The notes beneath the pieces are model-generated. The model saw only the letters and a list, made by a program, of their open reading frames with translations. It was not told the origin of the DNA and did no database searches. The translations under genes were made by a program, and so were the position numbers. This document shows positions 5,922-13,400 of a stretch of DNA of 14,421 nt, piece by piece (the first letter of the stretch is position 1; every line of letters starts with the position of its first letter). The DNA is from Bacteroidales bacterium (GTDB taxonomy: Bacteria > Bacteroidota > Bacteroidia > Bacteroidales > UBA12481), in assembly GCA_021160155.1 (NCBI GenBank), contig JAGHDB010000038.1, forward strand, positions 1-14,421, read 5' to 3'.

Positions 5922-6815
5922 TTATTCTTTAGTTCTGATCTCTGTCTTTTGCCTTATTTTTTTTATGTGTTCCGGTGTCGTACCACAGCATCCTCCCACG
6001 ATATTGGCCCCGGCATCCAGCAATCTGGGAATAAAAGAGGCGGTGATTTCAGGAGTTTCGTCGAAAACATTCTGACCGTCAATCAGATGAGGCAGACCGG
6101 CATTGGCATGAACCAATACCGGAATATCGGGATTAATCCGGCGGATAGATTCAACGATCGGGATCATATTTTCCATACCATTGCCACAATTTGTACCCAG
6201 GATATCCACTCCTGCTTCCTGCAGTGCCGTTACCATCTCTTCGGGACTTACTCCCATCATGGTTCTGAAGTCACCCTGTACGGTTTTATCGAAAGTCATG
6301 GTACAGATCACTTCAAGCCGGGTGTGTTCTTTGGCAGCTTTAACGGCCAGGATCGCTTCATCCAGGGCTATCATGGTTTCAATACAGATGGCGTCAGCTC
6401 CACCGGCTTCAAGAGCCATAGCCTGTTCTTTAAATGCATCAAATAACTGATCCTCGCTTACTTCTCCCATCATCAACATAACTCCGGTTGGACCTACTGA
6501 ACCTAATACAATTACTTTATCCCCTGCAGCGGACCGGGAAATTTCAGCTGCTTTTTGATTAATCTCATAAGTTTGTCCGTCTAAATGATAATGGGCCAGT
6601 TTGAACCGGCTGCCTCCAAAGCTGTTGGTCTCAATCAGGTCAGATCCGGCAGCTACATAGGCTGCTGCCACCTCTCTGACTTTTTCGGGATGGGTCAGGT
6701 TCCATGATTCGGGGCATTCGCCGGGTTGTAATCCCATTGATTGCAACATGGTACCCCAGGCACCGTCAGAGACCAGGGTTTTCCCTGATGATAAAGCTTT
6801 AAGAATTCTGTTCAT
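5922..6815 (-). CDS. Zinc homocysteine S-methyltransferase, MetH N-terminal-module type
   Basis: The family transfers a methyl group to the zinc-activated thiol of homocysteine, giving methionine. The 297-residue barrel corresponds to the first module of cobalamin-dependent methionine synthase, or to BHMT/MmuM, standing alone. DGAWGTMLQ begins the barrel (17-25) and IETNSFGGSR follows (61-70). GTNCGNG supplies Cys210 and GGCCGTTPEHI supplies Cys276 and Cys277, the three zinc ligands. No folate-, B12- or AdoMet-binding module is attached. Its start overlaps the end of the G3E GTPase gene by 17 bases. Because the operon also encodes a separate corrinoid protein, the likely methyl donor is that protein's methyl-cob(III)alamin. 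A betaine or S-methylmethionine donor remains possible. Confidence 0.9.
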   Translation of the reverse strand: MNRILKALSSGKTLVSDGAWGTMLQSMGLQPGECPESWNLTHPEKVREVAAAYVAAGSDLIETNSFGGSRFKLAHYHLDGQTYEINQKAAEISRSAAGDKVIVLGSVGPTGVMLMMGEVSEDQLFDAFKEQAMALEAGGADAICIETMIALDEAILAVKAAKEHTRLEVICTMTFDKTVQGDFRTMMGVSPEEMVTALQEAGVDILGTNCGNGMENMIPIVESIRRINPDIPVLVHANAGLPHLIDGQNVFDETPEITASFIPRLLDAGANIVGGCCGTTPEHIKKIRQKTEIRTKE

Positions 6816-7758
6816 ATGATGATTTCACTTGTTTAAGGGATAGAAATTTTTTAGAAAACTGTGCAGGGATTAAATCGGGTCCCAGAGCGATCACTTCAGT
6901 GCCGCTTTCATGATTTGGCCACTCCCGGATCTCCACATCCCGGTTTACTGTTTGAATAGCCAGGGTTAAATCCGGAGAGATTTTGATAAAGCCTTTCATC
7001 CGGTACAGGTGTGCCGCTTCCTGATGGATAAAATCGGTGACTTTTTGCCGGTCGAAATAGTAGTTTGAACGAACCACGCAGGCACCGACGGCGGGTCTTT
7101 TTACTTTGCTTACGGGTTCATTTACCGGTATTTTATCCCAAACATTAAAGAAATGGTTTTCTAATTCGATTTGAGTTGTATTTCCGAATCGGGTTGACAA
7201 GATTGAAGCATAGGGATTCAATTCACGAAGGCGTTTTTCAATAGGTTCAATCTCAGAGATCAGATCGGTTTTATTGATCCAGATCAGGTCGGCGATACTT
7301 ACCTGGTGACGGATTTGAAATACCTGGTCAACCATGGGGAAAAAGTTTCTGGCATCCACAATGCACCATGATCCTGCCAGATAAATATGATCGAATACCT
7401 GGGGGGATTGTAATATTTCTCCCAGTGAAACCGGATCTGCGAGTCCGGTTGCTTCCAGAAAGATTACATCCGGTCGGGCCTCTTTCAAAAACGCATCCAG
7501 GCGGTCAATGAAATCACTCAGAAGGCAGGCGCAGAAAACACTGCCGTTATTAATCTCCATCAATTGAAATGGCTTCCCGACTTCCCGGAGCATCTGACCG
7601 TCCACATGACCGGGGGCAAACTCATTCTGAACCACTGCTATCCGGTAGTGTTGACTGTACCGCCGGATCAATTCTGTCAACAGGGTGGTTTTGCCACTTC
7701 CGAGAAACCCGGTGACCAGGAAAAAGGGTACTTTGACTACAGGAGATCTTTTATCCAT
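6799..7758 (-). CDS. G3E-family (CobW/UreG/HypB-like) GTPase
   Basis: G3E GTPases load or guard metals and B12 cofactors in target enzymes, using GTP hydrolysis. The 319-residue protein has a Walker A loop GFLGSGKTT (17-25), a Walker B/E-motif strand DVIFLEATGLADP (97-109), and the guanine-specifying NKTD (162-165). The C-terminal domain is CobW-like but short. The metal-binding CxCC motif of most CobW/COG0523 proteins is altered. Here NNGSVFCACLL (70-80) provides Cys76-x-Cys78 only, with a Ser where the first Cys usually stands. The start overlaps the fusion methyltransferase gene by 22 bases and its end overlaps the homocysteine methyltransferase gene by 17. Context suggests cofactor insertion, zinc supply or corrinoid reactivation for the methyltransferases. 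Which of these is unknown. Confidence 0.88.
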   Translation of the reverse strand: MDKRSPVVKVPFFLVTGFLGSGKTTLLTELIRRYSQHYRIAVVQNEFAPGHVDGQMLREVGKPFQLMEINNGSVFCACLLSDFIDRLDAFLKEARPDVIFLEATGLADPVSLGEILQSPQVFDHIYLAGSWCIVDARNFFPMVDQVFQIRHQVSIADLIWINKTDLISEIEPIEKRLRELNPYASILSTRFGNTTQIELENHFFNVWDKIPVNEPVSKVKRPAVGACVVRSNYYFDRQKVTDFIHQEAAHLYRMKGFIKISPDLTLAIQTVNRDVEIREWPNHESGTEVIALGPDLIPAQFSKKFLSLKQVKSSYEQNS

Positions 7759-9359
7759 TCTTTGATTACTTCAATGGTGGGTTGGCGGCCTTCAGAACGA
7801 ATCCGGTATTTGACAGATATCCAGGCAGGGGTGTCTGCCACCCCGAGGTTTTGACGGAATTCTTCTCCCGTTTCAATCCTCACGTCTAATTTAGTGCCCA
7901 GCTCGGCAAGCGCCAGCTCTGTTTTTCTTTTTAATTCAGTAAGTTCTTCACCTGATTCACCTGCCAGCAGAATCTCTCCGGGTTTAATACGCAGGCGGCT
8001 TTTCAGTTTTTCATTAATTCGCTTTTGTATAGCACGTATCAATTCGTTCTTTGGAGGAATTTTCGAAACAAAGGTTATTTTACCATCAATACAGATTGTC
8101 GGTATGTTTTTAACAAAAAGAGAAGACATAAAAGTAATACCTTCGAAATCTTTAATAGAGTGTTCTCTCCATTCAACGATTCCTTCAAAATGCGGGGCTA
8201 CCTGTTTGACAGCTTCAACCATATACTGACAGGGAGCACACGACTCTGAATCAAGGGTGATAATATCTACTATGACTTTATCAATGTTTCCATAATCATC
8301 CAGGTTAAGCAATTCGGGTTTGGAAGAGGTCTTTCCCAGAGCCTGAATAACCTCTTGCTGATAGGGATCATTCACCAGACGGGTAATTGCCCTGATGTTT
8401 TCAGGTGGCGTTTTCATGGGCAGATCGCATCCCGGAGCAAGAATAAACCGGGGACTGTCAGCGGTAGTTATGCACTCCCATGCGTGCTGCATGCAATCTT
8501 CTTCGGATCCCATCAGTAACACCATGGTCAGCTGCAGGTTGCCTCCAAAACTGATGTCGTATTTTTTGCATACTTCTCTGACAAAGTCGAGGGGGATATT
8601 CTCATCGATAGAGACGTTATCCGGGCCGGTCTGGCTCATGACTTCGATATTCTGCTGGGCATGGCCGCAGACAAAAAATGAACTCAGAGCTCCGGATTTA
8701 CGAATAAAGTTAAAAACGGATGAAGCCGGCTCGTGAATGAATTCTTTAAATTGTTCCGGACCTATTTGTGAGGTCATCGGATCTACCATTGCAATGATAT
8801 CGCAACCGGCATCCAGGTAATACCCGGCCATGGTACTGGTAACTTCGGCAGTAAAGGTAAGCAGCTCTCTGATACCCTCCGGATCCTCAAACATTTTCAT
8901 AAAAATATCGGTACCCAGAAGGTGTAAAGCCAGAGTAAACGGACCGGTAACCAGTCCGTACAATCCCAGTTCGGGAAATTTTTTCCTCATTTCCCGTGCA
9001 GTTTCCATAACCATCGGGATTCGGCCGTCTTTTGGCCCCGGTATCTTAAGTGTTTTCAGTGCAACTCCTTCTGCAAGCGGGTGCGTAACAACCGCGGGCG
9101 GGTTATCGGGTGACCAGTTCAACCGGCATCCCAATGCTTCAGCTTCAATTTGTAAATCAAAACAAACCGGAAGACCATCAGGTTGGTATAATTCAACCGC
9201 TTTAGAAAGCCCCTGAATCATAAGTTCTGAGGATTGCAGATACAAATCGGCTGTAGTGCCGATCAGGTATCCGCCATGCACTCCGACAAAAGGAACCCAC
9301 GGGGTACGGCTGGTCTCTTCTCCTCTTATTGTATTGATTAGCAGTTCTTTGCCTTTCAT
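7737..9359 (-). CDS. UroD-superfamily (MtaA/CmuA-like) corrinoid methyltransferase fused to two thioredoxin-like domains
   Basis: Residues 1-335 or so form a UroD-fold methyltransferase domain of the MtaA/MtbA/CmuA type, which moves methyl groups to or from a corrinoid protein. EAEALGCRLNW (72-82), DNPPAVV (85-91) and PGCDLPMKTPPENI (309-322) are typical. The usual zinc motif HxC is altered: the segment reads FFVCGHA, with Phe at the His position, Cys231, and His233 two residues later. Cys311 is the distal Cys. A thioredoxin-like domain follows (about 360-450) with a CAPC active site (Cys374, Cys377) and a likely cis-Pro420. A second such domain (about 458-540) lacks the cysteines (GESG at the equivalent place) but keeps a TPAW cis-Pro-like segment. 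Usual family members stop near 340-370 residues. A redox role on the corrinoid or on the enzyme's own thiols is an inference. Confidence 0.85.
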   Translation of the reverse strand: MKGKELLINTIRGEETSRTPWVPFVGVHGGYLIGTTADLYLQSSELMIQGLSKAVELYQPDGLPVCFDLQIEAEALGCRLNWSPDNPPAVVTHPLAEGVALKTLKIPGPKDGRIPMVMETAREMRKKFPELGLYGLVTGPFTLALHLLGTDIFMKMFEDPEGIRELLTFTAEVTSTMAGYYLDAGCDIIAMVDPMTSQIGPEQFKEFIHEPASSVFNFIRKSGALSSFFVCGHAQQNIEVMSQTGPDNVSIDENIPLDFVREVCKKYDISFGGNLQLTMVLLMGSEEDCMQHAWECITTADSPRFILAPGCDLPMKTPPENIRAITRLVNDPYQQEVIQALGKTSSKPELLNLDDYGNIDKVIVDIITLDSESCAPCQYMVEAVKQVAPHFEGIVEWREHSIKDFEGITFMSSLFVKNIPTICIDGKITFVSKIPPKNELIRAIQKRINEKLKSRLRIKPGEILLAGESGEELTELKRKTELALAELGTKLDVRIETGEEFRQNLGVADTPAWISVKYRIRSEGRQPTIEVIKEWIKDLL

Positions 9360-9362
9360 TTT

Positions 9363-10433
9363 TTAATACTTTGGATAGAGGGATCTGGCAATTTCTTTAA
9401 TGACTTCAAGGTTTTCAAACGGTACTTCCGGCTCAACCAGGTGGGTAGGACCCAGAACCAATCCGCCCCGCGTGCCACAGGTTTTCAGGCGGTCTTCAAT
9501 TACCTCCCGGATTTCGGCAGGAGTACCAAACGGAAGAAGTTGCTGGGTTCCCAAAGTACCCCAAAAAGAGAGCCGGTCGCCGAATTGGCTGTATATTTCA
9601 TTGAAGTCCATCGACTCGGGTTGCACCGGATTCAGAATATCGATCCCGGTTTCGATCAGGTGCTCGATAAAAGGTGTGACAAATCCACAGGAGTGATAAA
9701 ACACCAGTATATCTGGATTAATCTCACGGGCGGCAACAATAACCTTTTTCAGGCGGGGCTGGATCCAGTTAAGCCACATATCCACACTCATCAGGGGAGC
9801 TTTCTGGGCTCCCAGATCGTCTCCCAGAGAGAGGATATCCACTCCCGCACGGGTATAAAGCCGAACCCGGTCAATTGCATATTGCGTGACCCGGTCAAGG
9901 AGGAGCGTGGCTTTTTCATCGCCAAACATAATATCGGTCAGGAGGTCTTCCATTGAGCGAAGGTACCATGATGATTCCCAAATGGTCATCTGCATCGGGC
10001 ACATGGTAGCCAGGCCTTGCTGATTCAGGGATTGTACCTCCTTGAAAAGTTCCTGGTTTTCAGCCTCGGTGAAATGTGGAAGAGGATAGTTCAGGATCTC
10101 TTCGGGGCTAATGTCTCCTTTAAGGGGATGATGCATCCGTGTCATGTGGTAGGCGGCTGCCGATCCCTTGGAGTGGCCCACTCCTAATAGGTCAAATTCA
10201 GTATCACGGGGTAGTTCTTCACGTGTATACAGCTCTTGTCCATGGGTGTATCCGGGATGTTCCTGAAGAGTGACCCAACGGAAATCCATATCAAACCATT
10301 TGAAATAATCTGTATGGCCGGTACGGTTTTTGAAATTTTCAATCTGCGCATCACACAATAAAAAATCCAAAGGCACCCATTCAAAGCCTTCACGACGACA
10401 GGCATGCAACAGGTTTTCCCTTGGCGAAATCAT
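9363..10433 (-). CDS. UroD-superfamily methyltransferase (corrinoid-dependent type)
   Basis: This 356-residue single-domain protein has the uroporphyrinogen decarboxylase fold but is not HemE, because it lacks HemE's N-terminal RPPVWxMRQAGR-type substrate motif. LSLGDDLGAQKAPLMS (201-216) and the zinc-type HxC in FYHSCGF (His247, Cys249) place it with the methyltransferase branch. A third ligand could be Cys319 or His331 in PTHLVEPEVPFENL. Such proteins take a methyl group from an O-, N-, S- or halo-methyl substrate and give it to a corrinoid protein, or the reverse. It begins one base after the corrinoid protein gene stops and ends three bases before the fusion methyltransferase gene begins, so the three are translationally linked. 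It is the better candidate for the substrate-side methyltransferase. The substrate is unknown. Confidence 0.86.
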   Translation of the reverse strand: MISPRENLLHACRREGFEWVPLDFLLCDAQIENFKNRTGHTDYFKWFDMDFRWVTLQEHPGYTHGQELYTREELPRDTEFDLLGVGHSKGSAAAYHMTRMHHPLKGDISPEEILNYPLPHFTEAENQELFKEVQSLNQQGLATMCPMQMTIWESSWYLRSMEDLLTDIMFGDEKATLLLDRVTQYAIDRVRLYTRAGVDILSLGDDLGAQKAPLMSVDMWLNWIQPRLKKVIVAAREINPDILVFYHSCGFVTPFIEHLIETGIDILNPVQPESMDFNEIYSQFGDRLSFWGTLGTQQLLPFGTPAEIREVIEDRLKTCGTRGGLVLGPTHLVEPEVPFENLEVIKEIARSLYPKY

Positions 10434-10434
10434 T

Positions 10435-11109
10435 TTATGATACCTGTTTGTTTAGAAAATCAACCGCTCCCTGAGGATCTGGCGAATACCAGTTAGCACC
10501 AATCTTTGTTTTAAATTCGTCAGTTACCGGAGCTCCACCGATCAGAATTTTGGCATCCGGTCTGGAATCTCTGACATCCTGAACAATTCGTTCCATATTC
10601 AACATTGTGGTAGTCAACAGACAACTTAATCCTATAAAAGCTCCGGGATGTTCTTCAAGAGCAGCAAGAAACTTTACCGCAGGTACATCAATACCCAAAT
10701 CAATTACTTCCCAGCCGGCTCCTTCAACAATCATACCCAGGAGGTTTTTTCCAATGTCATGCAGATCACCCATAACTGTTCCAATGATAAAGGTCCCTTT
10801 TCGTTGAACTTCTCCGGATTGAAAATAGGGCCTGAGATGGTTCATCCCGGCAGTCATGGCTTTGGCTGCCATAAGTACTTCGGGGACAAAAATTTTATTT
10901 TCACGAAATTTTATCCCAACTATTTTCATTCCCGGTACCAAACCTTCAGATAAGACCTGGTCTGCAGAAGCACCCATATCCAGAACTTTCCGGGTTAATT
11001 CATCAGCCCCCGGTTGCCCCTTTAAATCTGGCGGATAGGGAGATTGCTCATTTACTTTCCCTCGTTCAACACAAACGGCGATCTCTTGTAATAGCGACTC
11101 TTGGCTCAT
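10435..11109 (-). CDS. Corrinoid (methylcobamide-carrying) protein, MtaC/MetH B12-module type
   Basis: This is a small cytoplasmic methyl carrier holding a B12-type cofactor, the shuttle between methyltransferases. The 224-residue protein has a helical cap domain (about 1-100) and a Rossmann-like B12 domain. The domain carries the base-off/His-on motif DLHDIG (115-120), in which His117 should ligate cobalt. SCLLTTTM (162-169) and GGAPVT (191-196) line the nucleotide-tail pocket as in MtaC, MttC and MetH. The open frame extends 18 codons further up to 11163, but that stretch (MQAFANIELN...) is hydrophobic, unlike the family, and lies in the promoter gap. The ATG at 11109 gives the usual MSQESLLQEI helix start. 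It is the first gene of the operon, divergent from the nitroreductase gene. Confidence 0.93.
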   Translation of the reverse strand: MSQESLLQEIAVCVERGKVNEQSPYPPDLKGQPGADELTRKVLDMGASADQVLSEGLVPGMKIVGIKFRENKIFVPEVLMAAKAMTAGMNHLRPYFQSGEVQRKGTFIIGTVMGDLHDIGKNLLGMIVEGAGWEVIDLGIDVPAVKFLAALEEHPGAFIGLSCLLTTTMLNMERIVQDVRDSRPDAKILIGGAPVTDEFKTKIGANWYSPDPQGAVDFLNKQVS

Positions 11110-11120
11110 AGTAACAATTA

Positions 11121-11150
11121 TTTGAATAATAAAATTAAGTTCGATATTTG
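11121..11150 (+). promoter_or_regulatory. Bacteroidota-type promoter for the nitroreductase gene
   Basis: TTTG at 11121-11124 is followed after 18 bases by GATATTTG at 11143-11150. This fits the Bacteroidota promoter pattern (TTTG at -33, about 19 bases, TAnnTTTG at -7) with one mismatch. The ATG lies 30 bases downstream of the -7 element, a normal leader length. This is the best promoter match I found in the window. Activity is inferred from pattern only. Confidence 0.45.
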
Positions 11151-11163
11151 CAAAGGCCTGCAA
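11148..11163. promoter_or_regulatory. Inverted repeat TTGCA-N6-TGCAA, possible operator
   Basis: Perfect five-base arms, TTGCA (11148-11152) and TGCAA (11159-11163), flank six bases. The site overlaps the end of the -7 element and the expected transcription start of the nitroreductase gene. It lies 39 bases upstream of the corrinoid protein start on the other strand. A dimeric repressor bound here could control one or both transcripts. Short arms make chance occurrence quite possible. Confidence 0.28.
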
Positions 11164-11179
11164 TTTAACAAAAACAGAA

Positions 11180-11743
11180 ATGATAAAAGATTTGATACGG
11201 AAAAATCGGAGTTACCGCAGATTCAATGAAAATGAGCGAATACCCCAGGAACTTCTGAAGGATTGGGTCAATCTGGCCAGGCTGAGTGCTTCAAGCCGTA
11301 ACCAACAGGCCCTGAAATTTAAATTTTTCTATGATTTGAAAGAGTGTGAGAAGATGTTTTCATGTTTATCCTGGGCAGGGTATCTTAGTGACTGGACAGG
11401 GGCAGCGCCCGGTGAACGGCCGGCTGCCTACATCATGATTTTGGGAGATACGCAACTGGGGACGAATTTTGACACAGATCTGGGTATTGCCGCTCAAAGT
11501 ATTATGCTGGGTGCAGTCGAGGCGGGATACGGAGGATGTATGATCGCATCGGTGAACCGTTACAGGGCCCGGGATATTTTTGCCCTCAAAGATATTTTTG
11601 AGATATTATTGGTGCTGGCTTTGGGAAAACCGGCAGAAAAAGTGGTCATTGAACCGATGAAAGAGGGTAATATCGAGTACTGGCGAGATTCAAAAGGTAT
11701 CCATCATGTACCCAAACGTGCGCTGAATGAACTGATTGTCTGA
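11180..11743 (+). CDS. Nitroreductase-family flavoprotein
   Basis: This is an FMN-dependent oxidoreductase of the nitroreductase superfamily, whose members reduce nitroaromatics, quinones, flavins or enones using NAD(P)H. The 187-residue protein shows the FMN-phosphate segment KNRSYRRF (8-15) and ASSRNQQ (37-43). It also has the central helix DLGIAAQSIMLGAVEAGYGG (100-119) and the C-terminal ALGKPAEK (147-154). No Fe-S domain is attached. The physiological substrate cannot be read from the sequence. It is the only gene in its direction before the long gap. BluB, the nitroreductase-fold enzyme that makes the lower ligand of B12, came to mind because of the corrinoid context, but this protein is shorter and I do not see BluB hallmarks. 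The real partner may be a flavin-dependent electron transfer to the neighbours, which is a guess. Confidence 0.88.
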   Translation: MIKDLIRKNRSYRRFNENERIPQELLKDWVNLARLSASSRNQQALKFKFFYDLKECEKMFSCLSWAGYLSDWTGAAPGERPAAYIMILGDTQLGTNFDTDLGIAAQSIMLGAVEAGYGGCMIASVNRYRARDIFALKDIFEILLVLALGKPAEKVVIEPMKEGNIEYWRDSKGIHHVPKRALNELIV

Positions 11744-11839: not shown

Positions 11840-12027
11840 TCGTTTTACCTTAGTAGTCGATAACAAGAAGTAATAGGTAAAAGTTCAACAAGGGATTTTT
11901 TAGGTTTAGTTGCTAAATAAAAATTTTTTCTTCTCACTTCTTCTTATCTGTAAGGTGGTTCTTGATTGTGGGGTTTGATAGGTGAAGTTGGTAAAAGAAA
12001 AAGGCGGTTCCCAGCCGCCTTTTTTTA
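11840..12027 (+). ncRNA. Possible structured leader or small RNA ahead of the reductive-dehalogenase-like gene
   Basis: The 313-base gap 11744-12056 has no credible ORF but folds repeatedly on the plus strand. TTTTACCT (11843-11850) pairs with AGGTAAAA (11875-11882). TTTAG/CTAAA (11905-11917) forms a small hairpin. A longer interrupted rod pairs 11925-11932 with 11995-12002 (8 bp), 11936-11940 with 11984-11988 (5 bp) and 11943-11948 with 11977-11982 (6 bp, one G-U). An intrinsic terminator closes the region. The first arm could pair instead with GGTAAAA at 11990-11996, so a switch is conceivable. No cobalamin-riboswitch B12 box (GCCACTG) is present. It could be an attenuator, a free small RNA such as a 6S-like RNA, or simply the nitroreductase 3' UTR. 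The pairings were found by eye. Confidence 0.3.
11998..12026 (+). terminator. Strong intrinsic terminator
   Basis: The stem GGCGG (12003-12007) pairs with CCGCC (12015-12019) over a seven-base loop. It is extended by A-T pairs between the upstream run of five A and the downstream run of seven T (12020-12026). It sits 237 bases after the nitroreductase stop and only 30 bases before the ATG of the next gene. It can therefore end the nitroreductase or small-RNA transcript, or act as an attenuator for the downstream gene. The reverse strand also has a five-T run, so some bidirectional action is possible. Confidence 0.85.
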
Positions 12028-12056
12028 TATTTTCGTCTCAGATAAAAGTTGTCAAA

Positions 12057-13400
12057 ATGGGTCAGGAAGTTGCTGCTGCCATAGGTGTACTGATGTTACT
12101 GGTTGCTTGTTGGTTTGTTTTTACTTCCATCCGCGAAGGAGAGCGGCGGGCTGCGTTGCGTCTGGTTTTATTAATGGTTCCGGCAGCTTTTCTTTTCTTT
12201 ATTCCTTTATTCCTGCACGCTCATGCCGGGGGGTTGATGGGCTGGATTATGACAGGGATACTTATTGCGGTTGTATTTTTTATTTTATGGCCGGATACCG
12301 GTCGTTCCATGGAAGATGAAGGTGTGCCTGACCGGGTAGATGAGCGGACCGTGATGTTTTCAAGGGTTGAACTGGTAAAGGGCACTGAACGGTTTCACAG
12401 CTACTACCGGATGCATCCCGAGCATTTTCAAGCGGATGAACAATTCAGGGAATATCCGGGTTTATTACAATCCGGTGCCCGGTTTGAACATCCATGGATT
12501 TTTGCTGCGGCTCAGTCGACTTTTGATACGGTTAAATTATTGCACCAGCAGGTGGATGGTCCCCTCCATTCAACCCGTACTAAGGCAGATGCTGATAAAA
12601 TTACACGGTTTCTGACAGAATGGTGCCGTACCATGGGTGCCCATTCGGTGGGTATAACCCTGTTAAAACCACACCACCTTTATACTTATGGCGGCAGGGC
12701 CCACAATTACGGGAAAAAGACCGAAAATCATCATCGTTATGCCATTGTTTTTACGGTTGAAATGAACTATGATCGTGTACAAATGGCACCTAAAAGTCCG
12801 ATTACCCTCGAATCTTCTGCCAGATACCTGCACGCCGGTGAAATTGCAGTCCAGCTGGCTCTGATGATCAGGAAACTGGGATATCCGGCCAGGGCACATA
12901 TTGATGGCAACTACCAGGTACGTTGTCCGCAGATTGCCCGTGATGCGGGACTGGGGGAGTTAGGCAGAATGAGTTTGCTGATTACCCCAACTGCAGGTCC
13001 CAGGGTCAGGATCGGAGTAGTGACCACGGATATTCCCCTGGTAATTACACCACGTAAGCCGGATTCGTCGGTGATTGATTTTTGCCGGATATGTAAAAAA
13101 TGTGCTGATGCCTGTCCCTCTCAAGCGATACCGTTTGACGACATCAAAAAGCAGTTTGGTGCACGGCAGTGGATCATCAATCAGGAGAAGTGTTTTACCT
13201 ATTGGTGTCAAACAGGAACCGACTGTGGCAGGTGCATTTCGGTTTGTCCCTATGCCCATCCGGATAATGCCATGCACCGGATGATCCGTTTTTTTATTCG
13301 AAAATCTTCAAGGATGAGAAGAGCAGCCCTCTGGTTTGACGATCTGATCTATGGAAGAAAACCTTCGCAACGACCTCTGGCCCCGTGGATGAATATATGA
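12057..13400 (+). CDS. Reductive-dehalogenase-like corrinoid/iron-sulfur protein with fused membrane anchor
   Basis: The catalytic part (about 95-447) resembles the reductive dehalogenase (RdhA) and QueG-related family, corrinoid enzymes that reduce their substrate at cobalt with electrons from two [4Fe-4S] clusters. AGLGELGRMSLLITPTAGPRVRI-type sequence (297-319) is a family hallmark. Cluster one is C343-x2-C346-x2-C349-x3-C353-P. Cluster two uses C379, C390, C393 and C397-P, with an extra C384. There is no Tat RR signal. Instead residues 6-23, 34-53 and 58-77 form three membrane helices. Arginines between helices one and two (SIREGERRAALR) suggest a cytoplasmic loop and a cytoplasm-facing catalytic domain. 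The frame opens 25 codons earlier at a GTG inside the terminator hairpin; the ATG at 12057 is preferred. Substrate, and even dehalogenase activity, are unproven. Confidence 0.82.
   Translation: MGQEVAAAIGVLMLLVACWFVFTSIREGERRAALRLVLLMVPAAFLFFIPLFLHAHAGGLMGWIMTGILIAVVFFILWPDTGRSMEDEGVPDRVDERTVMFSRVELVKGTERFHSYYRMHPEHFQADEQFREYPGLLQSGARFEHPWIFAAAQSTFDTVKLLHQQVDGPLHSTRTKADADKITRFLTEWCRTMGAHSVGITLLKPHHLYTYGGRAHNYGKKTENHHRYAIVFTVEMNYDRVQMAPKSPITLESSARYLHAGEIAVQLALMIRKLGYPARAHIDGNYQVRCPQIARDAGLGELGRMSLLITPTAGPRVRIGVVTTDIPLVITPRKPDSSVIDFCRICKKCADACPSQAIPFDDIKKQFGARQWIINQEKCFTYWCQTGTDCGRCISVCPYAHPDNAMHRMIRFFIRKSSRMRRAALWFDDLIYGRKPSQRPLAPWMNI

Follow-up and report, generated by a model that had tools for sequence, protein, structure and literature searches.

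We analysed a window of 14,421 nucleotides (the whole stretch of DNA studied; contig JAGHDB010000038.1, assembly GCA_021160155.1) from a Bacteroidales bacterium, and within it a gene whose product joins a methyltransferase fold to two thioredoxin-like domains. This 540 aa fusion (7737..9359, minus strand; open reading frame (ORF), Pfam and structure model) carries a UroD domain of the MtaA type followed by two Thioredoxin_3 domains. Its features suggest a corrinoid-dependent methyltransferase of the UroD/MtaA clan, whose partner would be the small corrinoid protein from the gene two places upstream. The reading that we favour, at somewhat short of even confidence, is that the metal-thiolate pocket of this enzyme has been rebuilt, is loaded by CobW and is kept reduced in cis by thioredoxin domain 1. 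That domain would most likely act on the pocket thiols, keeping either the metal thiolates or a held thiol substrate reduced, and would not itself make cob(I)alamin. Methyl groups passing through this row of genes would most likely end on homocysteine, via the MetH-like domain that closes the row.

The UroD domain (residues 4-330; 8370..9350; this and all features below are on the minus strand unless stated) has the URO-D fold and is MtaA-like in structure, with 4ay7 as the best match of the structure model (~24% identity); the full-length model barely probed residues past 336, and the C-terminal model barely probed domain 2. The fusion falls below the cut-offs of the NCBIfam models of the MtaA/MtbA/CmuA group, TIGR01463 (151.2 of 235.4 bits), NF040654 (133.7 of 400) and NF041608 (114 of 600). 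We aligned 63 long forms, 20 drawn from 120 listed database proteins and 43 from the 80 named loci, and set beside them seven short forms without thioredoxin domain 2 (six from a sample of genomes of the order, and Subdoligranulum L003). Two of the three usual zinc ligands are kept, as Cys231 (8667..8669) and Cys311 (8427..8429) are present in 63/63 long forms. The third is lost: alignment to 4ay7 places Phe229 (8673..8675) at the His position of the HxC zinc motif, and Phe stands there in 63/63. A histidine has been gained at position 28 (9276..9278), invariant in 63/63 long and 7/7 short forms. In 62 further UroD proteins taken from these loci and genomes, His occupies position 229 in 58 and position 28 in none; at position 28 the alignment is less certain for distant sequences. 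His28 may be a new ligand of the Cys231-Cys311 pocket, and the adjacent CobW GTPase probably loads the altered site.

The His-Cys-Cys ligand set of MtaA, MtbA, CmuA and type 1 Mlps is replaced by Phe-Cys-Cys in all 63 proteins. According to one study (PMC10418091), His-Cys-Cys marks sulfur/selenium (S/Se)-methyltransferases, and a Cys that is lost or replaced by a carboxylate marks O-methyltransferases; the Phe-Cys-Cys set, judged by sequence, matches neither side of this rule. Retention of both Cys ligands, as in the S/Se-methyltransferases covered there, lends some weight to the idea that the fusion is a donor-side enzyme with a methyl-sulfur or methyl-selenium substrate of its own, whose disulfide or selenosulfide form domain 1 would reduce so that the thiolate binds the metal. 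In a FastTree tree (no printed supports), the UroD groups closest to the fusion are mostly His-Cys-Cys, which points the same way. We regard this idea as rather unlikely, given that Phe replaces the His of that set in every long form and that 17 recurring neighbour clusters, inspected by eye, contain no sulfur or selenium metabolism save the homocysteine domain.

Thioredoxin domain 1 (residues 361-452; 8004..8279) passes PF13192 (Thioredoxin_3; 37.7 bits, cut-off 24.8), as do 63/63 relatives. Its CAPC redox motif (Cys374/Cys377; 8229..8240) is present in all 63 aligned proteins, and the CXXC also in 7/7 short forms. Domain 1 is the best-conserved part of the fusion, with a mean pairwise identity of 0.76 (residues 359-452) among the 63, compared with 0.61 for UroD and 0.38 for domain 2. 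Domain 2 (residues 457-540; 7740..7991) contains no cysteine and scores only 16.5 bits against Thioredoxin_3 (E 0.0085, under the cut-off). Its CXXC is missing in 58/63 proteins and retained in 5/63; these five segments alone match Thioredoxin_3 at 50.6-72.9 bits (E 2e-13 to 2e-20), and the segment from L101, with an incomplete CXXC, matches at E 4.8e-11. These five relatives point to a thioredoxin origin of domain 2, which looks like a genuine yet worn copy and is probably structural. A short form stopping directly after domain 1 occurs in 6/10 fusion genomes of the order sample. We rejected misassembly or a chance fusion, as the ~540-residue form recurs, with 537-545 residues in the 43 aligned named-locus proteins. 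Together these data bear out the domain description of an earlier, sequence-only reading of this window: a UroD-type fold, a CAPC thioredoxin domain in cis and a second, cysteine-less thioredoxin domain.

Two other roles for the thioredoxin part were weighed against these residues. The domains might be non-catalytic and recruit the corrinoid protein or CobW, as docking or redox-sensing modules; the loss of CXXC from domain 2 in 58/63 proteins and the conservation of domain 1 well past its CXXC fit this, but the intact CXXC of domain 1 in every long and short form does not, and we consider it improbable. Alternatively, a thiol or persulfide of domain 1 may itself accept the methyl group, giving a protein thioether or releasing methanethiol. 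The UroD part does resemble the thiol-methylating MtaA group, and an extra cysteine, Cys423 (8091..8093), lies three residues past Pro420, which we take to be the cis-Pro position of the domain. Cys423 is found in 63/63 long forms but in 0/7 short forms, and the row already has a homocysteine domain, so that we find little reason to expect such an acceptor.

The CobW/COG0523 GTPase gene (6799..7758; PF02492, E 8.2e-39) shares 22 bases with the end of the fusion gene, and beyond it lies the homocysteine S-methyltransferase domain (5922..6815; PF02574, E 2.9e-75). The closest solved relative of the latter is the MetH fragment 1q7m (E 5.2e-46, versus 7.4e-17 for 1umy, the betaine-homocysteine methyltransferase BHMT). 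Upstream are a second UroD-family protein of 356 aa, with His-Cys-His at the zinc positions (9363..10433; PF01208, E 6.9e-20), and the small corrinoid protein (10435..11163; PF02310, PF02607), for which an alternative ATG at 11109 gives 224 aa, near the 222 aa of many relatives. We counted neighbours within 8 kb of the fusion, using profiles built in this analysis, at the named loci, which are the best 80 of 556 confirmed. CobW was found at 64, the corrinoid protein at 45, the homocysteine domain at 39, another UroD at 24, a PF02965-like activation protein at 18, a nitroreductase at 6 and a RACo-type protein at 5. At the 39 of these loci that are flanked by 4 kb or more on each side, the respective counts were 34, 29, 22, 17, 12, 5 and 2. 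The corrinoid protein is also present in 10/10 fusion genomes of the order sample. Rows that include the homocysteine domain resemble, by their gene content, a dismantled methionine synthase with UroD enzymes in the place of the pterin module.

In five of six short-form stretches the order is UroD, corrinoid protein, fusion, CobW and activation protein; the contig of the sixth (L121) starts at the fusion, and 2/6 continue into RACo. The activation protein is similar to 1j6r (E 3.8e-7; a ubiquitin construct headed that search, but none of its stretches passed individually), and Pfam assigned four of these proteins to PF02965. COG0523 proteins are metal chaperones, and their metal motif is CxCC. 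The CobW proteins of the window and the related cassettes show CxC followed mostly by Leu (CVCL in 38/72, CACL in 8/72; 14/72 lie outside the pattern used). In L163 and L164, CobW also adjoins a different corrinoid protein, together with a protein of 458 aa that by eye looks like a protein of L156 assigned to MtaB by Pfam. According to a comparative study, COG0523 genes of one subfamily adjoin mtaA, mtaB, mtaC and ramM (PMC2770081).

We next consider co-occurrence in the order sample of 198 genomes, in which the fusion matched in 10 (E <= 1e-60), a close corrinoid protein in 24 (E at most 1e-75; 34 genomes match at 1e-35) and a UroD family of ~420 residues in 17 (query L140, E <= 1e-35). The corrinoid protein was present in 10/10 fusion genomes and in 14/188 others (Fisher P 9.7e-11). 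Furthermore, it accompanied the ~420-residue family in 14/17 genomes, compared with 10/181 without that family (P 1.1e-12), and in 12/13 at E <= 1e-50. Because the sampled genomes are related, these P values are optimistic. Within the 24 corrinoid-protein genomes the fusion and the ~420-residue family were independent of each other (family present in 5 and absent from 5 fusion genomes, present in 9 and absent from 5 others; P 0.68). Such independence of the fusion from a UroD family of sugar loci, as separate clients of the corrinoid protein (n=24), is a further point for a methyl-sulfur or methyl-selenium substrate.

The corrinoid-protein stretches of the 14 fusion-less genomes (3.6-13.5 kb) gave a CobW profile match in 0/14, indicating that CobW follows the fusion. 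The same stretches contained one homocysteine domain, four activation proteins and three RACo-type matches (one cut at the stretch end); the corrinoid protein lies beside folate enzymes (Pfam) in L153 and beside MtaB in L156. In the host's own family, L148:4342-7174 holds the corrinoid protein, a UroD and the MetH-like homocysteine domain in a row, at a locus with neither fusion nor CobW, and the genome has no fusion match at 1e-60. This row looks like a natural deletion of the fusion-CobW pair. The fusion and its CobW thus form a detachable module, which corrinoid pathways can gain or lose.

The sequence-only reading had noted that the window encodes neither RamA nor RACo and had raised the possibility that the thioredoxin stands in for these Fe-S activators, reducing the corrinoid to Co(I). 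The observation holds, as scans of ten window ORFs found neither, apart from a weak Fe-S hit to RamA (17 of 500 bits), and the CXXC in cis in 63/63 proteins would suit such a role. The substitution is not supported. A RACo-type protein of 534 aa is encoded elsewhere in the window's own genome (contig C295; genome 81.6% complete), and PF14574 (RACo) matches occur in 4/9 other fusion genomes and 3/11 chosen fusion-less ones. Within 8 kb of the fusion, a RACo-type gene occurs at 5/80 loci and 2/6 short-form loci, and a MetH-type activation protein at 18/80 loci and 6/6 short-form stretches. Five of the nine other fusion genomes, in which RamA was not sought genome-wide, lack a PF14574 match, in favour of reduction by the thioredoxin, but in four of these (G179, G185, G293, G344) the activation protein is encoded next to the fusion; G219 alone showed neither. 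In addition, a dithiol, with a potential well above that of the Co(II)/Co(I) couple, is too weak to take Co(II) to Co(I). RACo and activation proteins in fusion genomes argue against the thioredoxin as a general substitute for an activator, though it may act so in single genomes; we rejected it as the main explanation and consider it very improbable.

Several observations weigh against the role that we favour, of a CobW-loaded pocket kept reduced in cis on a route to homocysteine. A bound metal, which we presume for the pocket, is not obligatory in the superfamily, since the UroD-type methyltransferase CdmB works without zinc (PMC13222342). The best 80 of 556 loci lean to close relatives. Of the 39 well-flanked loci, 5 showed CobW alone or none of the counted genes, and no corrinoid-type partner; in Planctomycetes CA13, which is among these five, the genome has a small corrinoid protein ~33 kb off. 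The homocysteine domain is missing within 8 kb at 41/80 loci and in 6/6 short-form stretches. As L148 keeps the row from corrinoid protein through UroD to homocysteine domain, the fusion is not needed for that route, which also weakens the proposal that it is the obligatory second methyltransferase of the row. Finally, a MetH-type frame of 1215 aa with pterin, B12 and activation modules is present elsewhere in the window's genome. We rejected the fusion row as the sole methionine synthase, since open frames of 1215-1245 aa with a B12 module occur in 8/8 genomes examined; of the MetH modules, the window ORFs scanned showed only those for homocysteine and B12.

The fusion shares features with several known systems. 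With the coenzyme M methyltransferases MtaA and MtbA (4ay7, M. mazei) it has in common the UroD fold, two of three zinc-ligand positions and a corrinoid protein alongside; it differs in Phe for the zinc His, the invariant His28 and the C-terminal thioredoxin domains. In type 1 mlp clusters, Mlps have His-Cys-Cys except several Mlps1, in contrast to Phe-Cys-Cys in the fusion and His-Cys-His in the second UroD (PMC10418091). The main text of that paper has thioredoxin only in a reference and CobW nowhere (PMC10418091); the fusion loci differ from those clusters by linking a MetH-like homocysteine domain and CobW. Another report describes MtgB/C/D/E of Ruegeria pomeroyi, a glycine betaine demethylase and split methionine synthase, where a small corrinoid protein is common to demethylation and methionine synthesis (PMC12478193). 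The likeness is that demethylation and a stand-alone homocysteine module draw on the same small corrinoid protein; as described there, Ruegeria has the donor MtgB and a pterin module, whereas the window has UroD enzymes and no pterin module (PMC12478193). The cassette's homocysteine domain and PF02965-like protein resemble the MetH fragment 1q7m and the stand-alone activation protein 1j6r, both of T. maritima, systems that have no UroD, thioredoxin or CobW part. For domain 1 the nearest NCBIfam models are HUIPC-motif thioredoxin-like (seleno)proteins and the MTH895/ArsE family (41.6 and 34.1 bits); domain 1 stays under their cut-offs (105 and 62), has Cys instead of selenocysteine and is fused.

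The sequence-only reading had called the pairing of UroD with thioredoxin unexpected. A search for this architecture found it widespread, with both Pfam domains in 119/120 listed matches, query included (4022 proteins at E <= 1e-3), which weakens that surprise; we found no assigned function for a UroD-thioredoxin fusion in openly licensed literature, weak evidence of absence because subscription papers are mostly outside it. Record titles of the best 80 of 556 loci name Bacteroidota, Planctomycetota, KSB1, Calditrichota, Spirochaetaceae, Lentisphaeria, Chlamydiota and others, mostly as metagenome-assembled genomes. In a phylum sample the full-length match was confined to the window's own genome (1/148). 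Relatives are labelled at the source 'uroporphyrinogen decarboxylase', 'MtaA/CmuA family methyltransferase' or 'thioredoxin family protein'. The component parts are of known kinds; openly licensed literature yielded no description of a UroD protein that combines a single or double Thioredoxin_3 part and an altered zinc motif with linkage to CobW. A short-form fusion also lies on a Subdoligranulum contig labelled plasmid (L003:119-3501), followed by a BioB-like radical SAM protein and CobW.

UroD-family proteins are dispersed through these genomes, with 3-16 PF01208 matches per genome in eight genomes (HemE-like proteins, fusion and fragments counted). Scattered loci include L117, L128 and L129 in the window's own genome and L131-L145 in Mariniphaga and Maribellus. 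Several of the scattered genes adjoin RhaT, GH2, GFO/IDH oxidoreductases and sulfatases (Pfam) and RhaM-like and mannosidase-like genes (by eye), and their products may be O-methyl-sugar demethylases that feed the cassette's small corrinoid protein. Enrichment of sugar-locus genes around them was borne out only in part. Sulfatases made up 4/88 neighbours, equal to the control (4/88, in stretches placed by hand in the same four genomes). GFO_IDH_MocA (7/88), GH2 (6/88) and RhaT (3/88) were not among the 25 of 140 control families shown, which puts each at one or fewer there; these counts are low, and the set includes orthologous loci (L131, L135, L141). Left out of this count were L133 (no complete UroD ORF), L146, L147, L117 and the scattered UroD genes of G347, G323 and G219.

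At the other end of the window, a nitroreductase-family protein (11180-11743, plus strand) is divergent from the corrinoid protein gene and near the fusion in 6/80 loci; it could donate electrons or belong to corrinoid metabolism as a flavin enzyme. A reductive-dehalogenase-like protein with a 4Fe-4S dicluster domain follows (11982-13400, plus strand; TIGR02486, 148.5 bits, cut-off 160.35) and is also seen in L028. Rfam and tRNA scans of the window gave no matches.

A more far-reaching proposal, which we put forward as doubtful, is that the CAPC dithiol acts directly on a sulfur or selenium substrate, which it reduces or passes on within the rebuilt pocket loaded by a dedicated CobW, and that the methyl groups of the fusion and of the UroD enzymes dispersed over sugar-degradation loci are pooled on one small corrinoid protein and passed to homocysteine. 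No methyl-collecting hub of this kind in Bacteroidota was found in openly searchable literature, and we know of no case of thiol-disulfide chemistry in B12 methyl transfer. If the dithiol joins the reaction, such chemistry would enter B12 methyl transfer. Behind generic annotations lies a distinct protein family, spread over several phyla, with a changed zinc motif, a dithiol in cis and a linked CobW. With one corrinoid protein and several UroD clients that would be interchangeable, the destination of methyl groups in these Bacteroidota becomes testable.

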